DNA of 64,000 nucleotides from an uncultured Phycicoccus sp. Lineage in GTDB: Bacteria; Actinomycetota; Actinomycetes; Actinomycetales; Dermatophilaceae. Positions 1 to 64,000 of this stretch are shown one piece after another. How positions within the stretch are numbered: position 1 is the first letter of the stretch; the number at the start of each line of letters is the position of its first letter. The stretch spans positions 1 to 64,000 of the forward strand of contig NZ_CANLZR010000001.1 in NCBI RefSeq assembly GCF_947495705.1. The letters run 5' to 3'. A program made the position numbers and the translations under genes. A model generated the notes under the pieces. It worked only from the letters and a program-made list of their open reading frames with translations, was not told the DNA's origin and did no database searches.

Positions 1-1395
1 GCTGGTCCAGGTGACGGTGCCGTCGTCGGTGAGGGTGGGGCGCCAGCGGCCGTGGTGTTTCATCCGGTGGTGTCGCCGGCACAGGGCGACGAGGTTGGCG
101 GGTGTGGTGGTGCCGGTGGGCCAGGGTCGGGTGTGGTCGAGGTCGGTGTGGTCGGCGGCTCGGGTGCAGCCCCACATCCGGCAGGTGCCGTCGCGGGTGG
201 TGACGAAGTCGCGCATCGACCTCGGTGGCCGGTAGGCGCCGGTGGTGTGGGAGACCTGGGTGCCGGTGTCGGCGTCGAGGACGGCGCGGGCGACGTCCAA
301 CGGGAGGGTCCGCAGGAGCCCGGCGACGGTGGTGGCGTCGACCCAGCCGAGCCCGGGCAGCTGGGTGCCGGAGACCGCGACCCCGGGGCCGACCGGGGCG
401 AGGACGGCCGCGATGTCGCCGTCGGGGTGGGGGCCGAGCTCGACCCAGGACATCTCCTCGCGGGAGGCCGGATCGAGGTCGGCGAAGCGGGTCAGCTCAC
501 CGGTGACCGCGTCCATCACCGTGTCGTCGTCGTCGCGGTCGATGCGCTCACGGACGGTCGCGACCGGGTCCGGGTCGGGGGCGCCGGTGACCACGGGCAC
601 CCCGAGGGTGACCTGGGCGGTGACCTGCACGGTGCGCAGCAGCAGGTCCCCGAACGCGTCCGCGCGGGACTCCGGCACCGACAGCCCCGGATCGAGCCCC
701 CGGTACTCGGCGGCGAGGGTGTCGACCGCCGACCACGCCGCAGCGCTGGTGGCCGTCGGCAGCGCCGCGTACCACTCGCTCAGCCCGTCGACCCCCGGGC
801 GGACCTGCACGCTGCGCCCGCGCCGGGCCCGCTCCGCGTGCGCGGCGACCTGACCGGCCGCGACCCGGGCCGCCACCGAGCGCGTCACGGACGTCACCCG
901 GGCCGGGTCCATCGCCGCCAGCCGCGGCCCGAGCTCGGCATCGACCCGCCCACACGCCTCGACGTCCAGCCCGGCGCACGCGTCGACGACCTTGTGCGCA
1001 CTCGAGACCGGCAGGTCACCGGCGAGCACCAGCTCCCGCACCCGCGGGAACCGCTCACCCAGCGCCGCACCGAGCGCGGCCTTGCGCCCCGCCAGCCCCT
1101 CGGTGACCCCGGTCGCCAACGACACCTCCGCCGCCGCCATCGCATCGACGAACCCCACCGGGTGCACCCGCTCCCACGGCCCCGACTCCCGCATCGTCGT
1201 CTCGACCCGAGCCCCCCACGCCGCCGCCACCGCCTGCGCCCCCTCGGCCGCGTTGACCAGCCCCTGCAGCTCACCGGCGACCTCGAAGCACTCCTGCGCC
1301 GACAGCCTGCGACCCCCGTCGGCCAGTGCCCGGCCCACCGCCGCGCACTCCACCCGCAGTGCCGCGATCCGGCTGCTCAGCTGCCCCCTGTCCAT
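1..1395 (-). CDS. DUF222 / HNH endonuclease (13E12 family), 3' end cut by window edge
   Basis: The reading frame is open from an ATG at 1395 to base 1 (465 codons) without a stop, so only the extreme C-terminus is missing. The N-terminal two thirds is a helical DUF222 domain (motifs ESGPWER, HPVGFVDAM, VLAGDLPV). The C-terminal part carries an HNH nuclease signature: CRMWGCTR, then DHTDLDHTRPW, then ANLVALCRRHHRMKHHG. The family is common in actinobacteria as dispersed paralogues. Nuclease activity is expected from the motif but its role is not established. A close paralogue starts at 63083 on the other strand and its first residues (MDR.Q...RIAALR) support this start. The promoter carries a LexA box and the mRNA looks leaderless. 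Confidence 0.9.
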   Translation of the reverse strand, partial: MDRGQLSSRIAALRVECAAVGRALADGGRRLSAQECFEVAGELQGLVNAAEGAQAVAAAWGARVETTMRESGPWERVHPVGFVDAMAAAEVSLATGVTEGLAGRKAALGAALGERFPRVRELVLAGDLPVSSAHKVVDACAGLDVEACGRVDAELGPRLAAMDPARVTSVTRSVAARVAAGQVAAHAERARRGRSVQVRPGVDGLSEWYAALPTATSAAAWSAVDTLAAEYRGLDPGLSVPESRADAFGDLLLRTVQVTAQVTLGVPVVTGAPDPDPVATVRERIDRDDDDTVMDAVTGELTRFADLDPASREEMSWVELGPHPDGDIAAVLAPVGPGVAVSGTQLPGLGWVDATTVAGLLRTLPLDVARAVLDADTGTQVSHTTGAYRPPRSMRDFVTTRDGTCRMWGCTRAADHTDLDHTRPWPTGTTTPANLVALCRRHHRMKHHGRWRPTLTDDGTVTWTS

Positions 1396-1400
1396 GCCTC

Positions 1401-1429
1401 ATCCTACTCGAACACCCGTACGACGACAA
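1401..1429 (-). promoter_or_regulatory. SOS (LexA)-controlled leaderless promoter of the left DUF222-HNH gene
   Basis: On the minus strand, a -35 TTGTCG (1429-1424) and a -10 TAGGAT (1406-1401) are 17 bp apart. The spacer is occupied by TCGTACGGGTGTTCGA (1423-1408). This matches the actinobacterial LexA consensus TCGAAC-N4-GTTCGA at 11 of 12 fixed positions. The -10 ends 5 nt before the ATG at 1395, so the transcript should begin at or next to the start codon. The same layout precedes the paralogue at 63083. Confidence 0.75.
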
Positions 1430-1588: not shown

Positions 1589-2137
1589 ATGGCACGCACC
1601 GTCACCGCCCATCTGTTCCACGCCGTCAACGGCGTCGCCGAGTCGCCCGACCAGTGGCAGTTCGGTGCGTTCGGACCCGAGGAGGGTGAGCGGATGGGCC
1701 GGACGATCGCGCCGGTCACCGACGTCGTCATCGGCCGCAAGCTCTGGCGCGAGTGGTCGGAGTACTGGCCGTCAGCGGCTGCCGACGACCCCTTCGCCGG
1801 GTGGATCAACCCGGTGCGCAAGCACGTCGTCACCTCGACCCTCGACGGCGACCTCGGCTGGAACAGCGCGCGCATCGACGGGGACCCCGTGGCCTTCGCG
1901 CGGGACCTCAAGGCCGGCGAGGGTGGCGACATCGCGGTGGTCGGAGGCGTCGAGACCGTCCGCACGATGTTCCTCGGGGGCGTCGTCGACCGGCTCACCC
2001 TGACGGTGCACCCGGTGGTGGGTGCCGGGCGGCGGCTCTTCGACGACTCGGTGCCGGTGACGCGTCTGGAGCTGCTCGAGGCCGTGCCCACCTCGGCCGG
2101 CAACGTGCTGCTCACCTACGCGCTGCGGGCGGGCTGA
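1589..2137 (+). CDS. RibD C-terminal-like / dihydrofolate reductase family protein
   Basis: A 182-residue cytoplasmic protein with the DHFR-like fold of the RibD C-terminal reductase family. Visible motifs are GRTIAPVTDVVIGRKLW near the N-terminus, DIAVVGGVETV in the NADPH-binding region and the C-terminal LTVHPVVGAGRRLF. Such proteins reduce pterin- or pyrimidine-like substrates with NADPH; the true substrate of stand-alone members is usually unknown. The ATG at 1589 is preceded at 8 nt by GAGGGG, which decides the start over the longer upstream frame. It stands alone, divergent from the left DUF222 gene and convergent with xseB (16 bp gap). Confidence 0.85.
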   Translation: MARTVTAHLFHAVNGVAESPDQWQFGAFGPEEGERMGRTIAPVTDVVIGRKLWREWSEYWPSAAADDPFAGWINPVRKHVVTSTLDGDLGWNSARIDGDPVAFARDLKAGEGGDIAVVGGVETVRTMFLGGVVDRLTLTVHPVVGAGRRLFDDSVPVTRLELLEAVPTSAGNVLLTYALRAG

Positions 2138-63047: not shown

Positions 63048-63076
63048 TTTCACTCGTACGTGTGTTCGGGTAGAAT
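63048..63076 (+). promoter_or_regulatory. SOS (LexA)-controlled leaderless promoter of the right DUF222-HNH gene
   Basis: -35 TTTCAC (63048-63053), 17-bp spacer, -10 TAGAAT (63071-63076). The spacer is TCGTACGTGTGTTCGG (63054-63069) plus one base, a LexA box with 10 of 12 fixed positions of TCGAAC-N4-GTTCGA. The -10 ends 6 nt before the ATG. Confidence 0.75.
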
Positions 63077-63082
63077 CAGGGC

Positions 63083-64000
63083 ATGGACAGGGAGCAGGCC
63101 AGCCGCCGCATCGCGGCCCTCCGCACGGAGGTCGCGGCACTGGGTCGTGAGCTGGCCGAGGGGGCGCGGGGGTGGCAGCCGGAGGAGTGCTTGGAGGTCG
63201 CGGGCGAGCTCCAGGGGGTGGTGACCGCCGCCCAGGGGGCCCAGGGCGTCGTGGCCGCGTTCGGGGCCCGGGTGGAGACCACGATGACGGAGTCGGGCCC
63301 GTGGGAGCGCACCCACCCGGTCGGCTTCGTCGACGCGATGGCCCCGGCGGAGGTGTCCCTGGCCACCGGCCTCACCGAAGGGCTCGCCGGGCGCAAGGTG
63401 GCCCTCGCGGCGGCCCTGTCGCAGCGGTTCCCGATGACGCAGGGCCTCGTCCTCGCCGGTGACCTCCCGGTGGCGTCGGCGCAGAAGGTCGTCGACGCCT
63501 GCGCGGGACTCGACGTCGACGCCTGCGAACGGGTCGACGCCCAGCTGGCCGGGCGGCTCCCCCTGATGGACCCGGCGCGGGTCGCCGCCGAGACCCGCCG
63601 GGTGGCGGCGCGGGTCGCTGCCGACCAGGTCGCCGCCCAGGCCGAGCGGACCACGCGGGGTCGCACGGTGGGTGTCCGGCCGGGGGAGGACGGCCTCACC
63701 GACTGGTACGCCCTCCTGCCGACCGCCACCTCGGCGGCGGCATGGTCGGCGGTGAACTCGCTCGCCGACGAGTACCGGCAGCTCGACGACTCCCTGACCC
63801 TGGCCGAGGCACGCGCCGACGCGTTCGGCGACCTTCTGCTCCGCAACGTCCGGGTGTCGGCCCAGGTCACCCTCGGGGTGCCCGTCGTCACCGGGGCGGC
63901 GGCGCCGGAACCCGTCGCCACCGAGTCGGTCCACGTGACGTGGGACGACGACGAGACCGTCGTCGACTGCGTCACCGGGCAGGAGACCCGCTTCGCCGAC
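63083..64000 (+). CDS. DUF222 / HNH endonuclease (13E12 family), N-terminal part, cut by window edge
   Basis: 306 codons are open from ATG 63083 to the last base; the HNH part lies beyond the window. The protein is a close paralogue of the gene at 1-1395: shared blocks include ESGPWER, HPVGFVDAM, AEVSLATG, TEGLAGRK, VVDACAGLDV, ATSAAAWSAV and RADAFGDLLLR, nearly colinear from the first residue. Orientation is opposite to the left copy. Its promoter has the same LexA-box layout. Confidence 0.9.
   Translation, partial: MDREQASRRIAALRTEVAALGRELAEGARGWQPEECLEVAGELQGVVTAAQGAQGVVAAFGARVETTMTESGPWERTHPVGFVDAMAPAEVSLATGLTEGLAGRKVALAAALSQRFPMTQGLVLAGDLPVASAQKVVDACAGLDVDACERVDAQLAGRLPLMDPARVAAETRRVAARVAADQVAAQAERTTRGRTVGVRPGEDGLTDWYALLPTATSAAAWSAVNSLADEYRQLDDSLTLAEARADAFGDLLLRNVRVSAQVTLGVPVVTGAAAPEPVATESVHVTWDDDETVVDCVTGQETRFAD

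Follow-up and report, generated by a model that had tools for sequence, protein, structure and literature searches.

A multi-copy chromosomal family of nuclease-like DUF222-HNH genes, probably under DNA-damage control through LexA-type or PafBC-type promoters

The DUF222-HNH genes, represented in Mycobacterium tuberculosis by the 13E12 family, are widespread, repeated and unexplained. In that bacterium, LexA control has been reported for several 13E12 members (PMC5005354, citing Davis 2002) and again for 13E12 genes in a further source (PMC4181829), and five RecA-dependent HNH genes have been described (PMC8151990), all of which bears out the LexA regulation of some 13E12-family genes that the preliminary description of the present locus had mentioned. 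REP13E12 regions are gene-conversion hotspots with 87 events, and the REP13E12 repeat contains a prophage attachment site (PMC13061034). The other damage pathway of actinobacteria works through PafBC, with the consensus TGTCGG-N10-TA-N3-T (PMC8151990), and mycobacterial recA carries both pathways on one gene, in two promoters, P1 for PafBC and P2 for LexA (PMC5656591). No statement on PafBC control of the 13E12 or DUF222-HNH family was found in the passages of the literature library that were searched; the term “HNH” is absent from the main text of a paper on LexA in Streptomyces venezuelae (PMC9380542).

The family described here, from an uncultured Phycicoccus sp., resembles the 13E12/REP13E12 family of M. 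tuberculosis in combining DUF222 with HNH, in its many copies per genome and in the LexA box of its promoters. Unlike what is reported for the mycobacterial family, it also occurs under PafBC-type promoters, exchanges its regulator between close copies and shows composite promoters. Mycobacteria already provide the LexA part; the new elements are a conserved damage control by either regulator, the exchange of regulators and the overlap of their sites. We are largely confident, as far as regulation is concerned, that these genes can be read as a multi-copy chromosomal nuclease-like family under DNA-damage control.

The window analysed is the first 64 kb (64,000 nucleotides) of contig C1 in a 3.54-Mb genome of 31 contigs (G000), and it holds two DUF222-HNH genes. 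Gene 1 lies on the reverse strand (1..1395; ATG at 1395-1393), with 465 codons present and its 3′ end missing at the contig start. Its promoter, on the same strand, consists of the −35 element TTGTCG (1424..1429), a 17-bp spacer (1407-1423) containing the LexA box TCGTACGGGTGTTCGA (1408..1423), and the −10 element TAGGAT (1401..1406), followed by GAGGC and the ATG. Gene 2, on the forward strand, has 491 codons in all, with its 5′ part in the window (63083..64000) and its end at about C1:64558, outside it; here the −35 element TTTCAC (63048..63053) precedes a 17-bp spacer (63054-63070) with the LexA box TCGTACGTGTGTTCGG (63054..63069), the −10 element TAGAAT (63071..63076), CAGGGC and the ATG at 63083, all on the forward strand. 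The preliminary description, according to which a LexA box makes up the 17-bp spacer of both promoters and the −10 element ends five or six nucleotides before the ATG, proved accurate, the box taking 16 of the 17 spacer bases in both genes and the distances being 5 nt (gene 1) and 6 nt (gene 2). The pattern TCGNACN3TGTTCG has just two sites without mismatch in the 64 kb, namely these two promoters; with up to two mismatches there are 37 sites, versus a shuffle mean of 20.8. A dihydrofolate-reductase-like gene (window 1590-2137) adjoins gene 1, and at the same site in congeners it is present in some and absent in others.

Both window genes match PF02720 (DUF222) above the cut-off (gene 1, E 2.4e-9). 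The Pfam HNH profile falls slightly below its cut-off in both (gene 1, E 4.7e-4, 20.7 bits against 21.4) and above it in two other copies of the genome, L002 and L006. In gene 1 the HNH motif (CRMWGC..DLDH..NL..LCRRHH, residues 405-448) is encoded at 52..183 on the reverse strand. Among 39 aligned DUF222-HNH sequences, the window's own included, C405, G409, C410, D420 and H421 are invariant and C439, H442 and H443 nearly so; the aligned members thus carry a C-terminal HNH motif in which H421 is the putative catalytic histidine. A profile search of the PDB returned weak matches only, with proteins that are either unrelated or designed (best E 0.0023), and we therefore claim no fold for the family.

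The genes read as free-standing ORFs. A Pfam search of the host genome gave eight DUF222 genes, to which copies at contig ends are to be added; one of the eight, L006, scored 44.5 bits against DUF222 in this search and gave no DUF222 match in the protein scan. Another genome yielded up to 18 matches, in which fragments of one gene may have been counted separately. Several host contigs end within DUF222-type genes, at C1:1 (L009), C5:53 (L013), C9:240 (L017), C5:274141 (L382), C14:56 (L387), C16:56 (L388) and C18:7118 (L389), as is expected of near-identical repeats, and the genome probably has more than eight copies. For four of the proteins, PADLOC gave no match and PHROGs matched the HNH part only, besides one weak match to a family of unknown function. 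Carriage by phages or plasmids was considered and found unsupported: a single query (L002) matched one of 50,697 phage records, in the HNH part only, and another single query (L004) matched two of 72,556 plasmid records.

The host genome has its own lexA gene (named by TIGR00498), with boxes of the window type in its upstream region. Without mismatch, TCGNACN4GTNCGA occurs at 11 sites of the 3.54-Mb genome, and with at most one mismatch, as in the box of gene 2, at 167 sites, where the reversed pattern gives 60. DUF222 promoters account for six of the 11 exact sites and belong to four Pfam-matched genes and two contig-end 5′ ends (C5:53 and C9:240). The other five are L012, between lexA and a LysM-type gene; L015, at a DUF6504/HEPN-type pair; L014, at an ORF; and L016 and L018, which read as within coding sequence (the LysM-type and DUF6504/HEPN-type names are our reading of the sequences). 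At L012 (C1:545190-545241) three adjacent boxes, one perfect and two with one mismatch, stand between lexA and the divergent LysM-type gene. The perfect boxes of L014 (C5:158976) and L015 (C5:201867) stand at possible ORF starts, that of L014 reading ATG ATC GAA CAC ATG TTC. Genes of the DUF6504/HEPN type, such as those beside L015, are frequently linked to translesion polymerases. Clustered LexA boxes are also described at lexA of M. tuberculosis (PMC8151990).

All eight Pfam-matched genes of the host have a damage-type promoter, and the regulator is not always LexA. The preliminary description had predicted LexA repression of a nuclease-like family and proposed a genome scan for the box upstream of every DUF222 gene. 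The prediction stands in the position of the motif, its conservation and the presence of a lexA gene with like boxes, and the scan finds LexA boxes at five of the eight; it fails for the remaining three (L001, L006 and L008), where the promoter has no LexA box and carries instead TGTCGGTG-N8-TAGNNT, ending 6 nt before the ATG. LexA alone, as an explanation of the whole family, is rejected on account of these three genes. We call their element a perfect PafBC motif because it fits the published consensus (PMC8151990), and the three genes are predicted members of the PafBC regulon. The form of the motif comes from the mycobacterial literature, and its use in the host's genus is suggested by its context and by a pafB/pafC-type pair, two adjacent WYL genes, one of them with an HTH_PafC domain.

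The perfect PafBC motif, TGTCRGTG-N8-TANNNT, occurs at 14 sites of the host genome, versus none for the reversed pattern. Three of the 14 precede uvrA, uvrB and recA (gene names read from the sequences), as in known actinobacterial PafBC (RecA-NDp) promoters, where the motif likewise stands a few nucleotides before the start. What sets this genome apart from known PafBC promoters is that seven of the 14 precede DUF222-type genes, namely L001, L006 and L008 and the contig-end 5′ ends L382, L387, L388 and L389; these last four are known only as such ends and were found via the motif, so that they are not independent evidence. L389 resembles L008; the assignment of L382 to the DUF222 type is based on 50% identity with gene 1 across 46 residues and 43% with L179 across 58 residues, and L387 and L388 hardly differ from L382 in the part available. 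The last of the 14 (L379/L390) resembles the DUF222 type by BLAST and by its HNH residues and is a probable eighth such gene, even though L390 matched neither Pfam DUF222 nor Pfam HNH. Three further sites precede other genes (L378, L380 and L381).

For a survey of the family we gathered 198 DUF222 genes, comprising the eight of the host, 110 from 42 other genomes of the phylum and 80 loci picked for similarity to the window family. The phylum sample was chosen from among the matches listed, before promoters were seen; both samples represent high-scoring genes among the matches listed and near relatives, not random draws. Twenty-three genes without upstream DNA were dropped, and 175 were scored. 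A LexA box was called at up to two mismatches to TCGAACN4GTTCGA, and a PafBC motif at up to one mismatch with an in-frame ATG, GTG or TTG 4-9 nt on. On these terms, LexA boxes were present in 102 of the 175 genes (69 with at most one mismatch), the PafBC motif in 39, and the variant TGTCRNACCCC-N5-TAGNNT in seven. At least one damage motif was found in 135 genes (8/8 of the host's own, 76/96 of the phylum sample and 51/71 of the similarity-chosen loci), whereas dinucleotide shuffling gave means of 0.04, 2.3 and 1.5, respectively, or about four in total. Upstream regions of dnaK had a motif in none of 29 cases, and among 589 control ORFs of the similarity-chosen loci there were 30 LexA boxes with up to two mismatches, six with up to one, and three PafBC motifs or variants. 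This set supersedes an earlier ORF control that overlapped DUF222 genes (n=868; 58, 20 and, for PafBC, 3). Of the 42 genomes that contributed scored genes to this count, the host among them, 35 have at least one motif-bearing DUF222 gene. In a same-genus set of 11 congeners, which overlaps the similarity-chosen loci, 57 of 70 genes have a motif (36 LexA, 21 PafBC). Under the thresholds used, neither motif was seen in 40 of the 175 scored genes and in 13 of the 70 in the genus set.

The variant, about 6 nt before the start, belongs to five Blastococcus genes (L185, L189, L194, L200 and L207), one of a Modestobacter MAG (L208) and one of Marihabitans (L167), and may represent a lineage-specific form of the PafBC motif. 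In Janibacter, the promoters of L162, L164, L165, L166 and L174 show TGTCGGTG-N8 and then GAGNAT in place of TANNNT, and four of these five scored as motif-free under the rule used.

The preliminary description had also suggested that the pairing of LexA box and DUF222-HNH gene may be general. With 102 of 175 genes, the pairing itself does extend across the family, but the spacer-filling geometry does not: a box 9-16 nt before the start with TANNNT between them is found in 33 of the 102 LexA-positive genes, the others having the box at other positions near the start. Of these 33, five come from this genome, four from other genomes of the phylum and 24 from the similarity-chosen loci, so that the design is mostly confined to the host's relatives. 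Within it, 28 of 33 promoters have a −10 element ending 5-6 nt before the start, and 28 of 33 have a −35 element beginning with TTG; in the PafBC class the distance is 5-7 nt at 39 of 40 sites (4-9 required). Both classes were chosen with a distance window, and the result is the sharp peak and not the range. The same −10 and leader can serve both types, as in TAGGATGAGGCATGGACAGGGGGACG of L138 (LexA) and TAGGATGAGGCATGGACAGGGGGACGATC of L176 (PafBC), where the preceding stretch differs. This spacing from −10 to ATG points to a likely leaderless initiation, and M. tuberculosis LexA has been reported as leaderless (PMC2897130). In four PafBC-type genes of the host (L382, L387, L388 and L390) a purine-rich stretch precedes the start, which lies some 20-25 nt further on.

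Copies within the host reveal what is duplicated. L007, L013 and L017 share their sequence from roughly 60 nt ahead of the ATG and differ further upstream, and in L382, L387 and L388 the likeness starts at the PafBC motif, the DNA preceding it being dissimilar; the promoter therefore moves along with the gene, whether through duplication or through gene conversion. Against this background the regulator changes repeatedly. In a tree of 169 proteins (FastTree only, with long-branch warnings), there are at least 13 changes between 86 LexA-only genes and 32 genes with the PafBC motif or its variant. The proteins of L144 (LexA) and L148 (PafBC), from one MAG, are 88% identical, and those of L002 (LexA) and L006 (PafBC), from the host genome, 67%. 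At the xseAB site, five of 12 congeners have a DUF222 gene, of which three carry a LexA box, one a PafBC motif and one neither. A second site, on the flank of the C5 copy, shows LexA in three relatives and PafBC, with one mismatch, in another. Such differences at conserved sites could also be produced by gene conversion from another copy.

Both motifs occur near the start of 13 genes, one of them (L069) outside the 175, from genomes G071, G060, G038, G093 and G044; several of these have one PafBC mismatch or up to two LexA mismatches. In six of the 13, the spacer and −10 element of the PafBC motif are overlain by the LexA box; the box starts on the last base of the −10 in five; in L026 it starts one base past the −10 and covers the start codon, while in L071 the two sites are apart. 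These genes resemble mycobacterial recA in bringing both damage pathways to one gene, and differ from it in that 12 of them combine the sites in one promoter, overlapping in 11 cases and abutting in one. In the overlapping arrangements, LexA cleavage and active PafBC should both be needed for expression.

From what is known of LexA, we would expect the repressor bound in the −35/−10 spacer of the window copies to block RNA polymerase with sigma-A, and RecA-stimulated cleavage of LexA to lift that block. In the copies with a PafBC motif, PafBC together with sigma-A would turn the gene on without RecA or LexA. Among the host's relatives, the conserved −10 element and a very short or absent leader would be the constant part, before which the upstream operator is exchanged. 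A bolder picture, to which we give less than even odds, is one in which a phylum-wide nuclease family multiplies as units of promoter plus gene and stays damage-inducible by swapping LexA and PafBC operators before a fixed −10 and leaderless start, overlapping sites acting as a joint gate. As to what the induced HNH protein cuts, we lean, at well below even odds, to the hypothesis of an endonuclease that would act on the chromosome where DNA is damaged or recombining, and that may also favour gene conversion among its own copies.

The sharing of promoter and gene by copies, the near-identical promoters in several congeners and the many sampled genes that are paralogues of one genome would also be expected if a few promoters had simply spread by duplication with their genes, in which case motif frequency would say little about selection. 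We consider this improbable, since motifs are found in 35 of 42 genomes whose proteins are widely separated in the tree, and since the operator was replaced at least 13 times while the promoter remained of the damage type, where plain inheritance would keep one operator. The same likeness of copies from the promoter on, with unrelated flanks, fits a selfish, homing-like element, whose HNH nuclease would cut a gene-free site or a diverged paralogue so that repair copies gene and promoter in. REP13E12 loci are among the most gene-converted in M. tuberculosis (PMC13061034), and while five of 12 congeners have the DUF222 gene beside xseAB, the other seven have xseA and show no match to the gene 1 protein in the 9-11 kb read; in five of those seven, both flanks align around the DUF222-free site. 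Yet neither a target nor a clear-cut insertion boundary came to light: in alignments of occupied and empty xseAB loci, the flanks mostly align with ragged borders, and we therefore make no claim of transposition. Several DUF222 sites are, moreover, syntenic across species, as for resident genes, and loss explains the empty sites equally well, which leaves this explanation unlikely, though one to be taken seriously.

Two further alternatives concern what the induced protein would do. One is a repair endonuclease, perhaps serving a pathway akin to mismatch repair; the LexA co-regulation of 13E12 HNH genes has led to such a proposal (PMC4181829), and in the host uvrA, uvrB, recA and some DUF222 genes have PafBC-type promoters in common; the patchy presence and the variable number of matches between congeners would nevertheless be unusual for a core repair step, and we rate this role, too, as somewhat unlikely. 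A damage-induced suicide nuclease, serving programmed cell death, finds its precedent in the M. smegmatis HNH nuclease MSMEG_1275, which cuts chromosomal DNA and kills when overexpressed, but only one of five HNH proteins tested there was lethal (PMC9416677), and MSMEG_1275 is likened to the present family by its HNH part. Many copies of such a gene per genome would presumably be costly, and we regard a suicide function as improbable.

The damage-type promoters, under either regulator, suggest that DUF222-HNH genes act upon damage to the chromosome. Should damage control prove to be what is conserved, no matter which regulator exerts it, then the function of the family should lie in the damage response, where it is directly testable. 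The exchange of regulators between close copies supplies matched pairs with which the contribution of each pathway can be measured, and with the overlapping LexA and PafBC sites, nature would offer a promoter in which the two damage pathways of actinobacteria are integrated.
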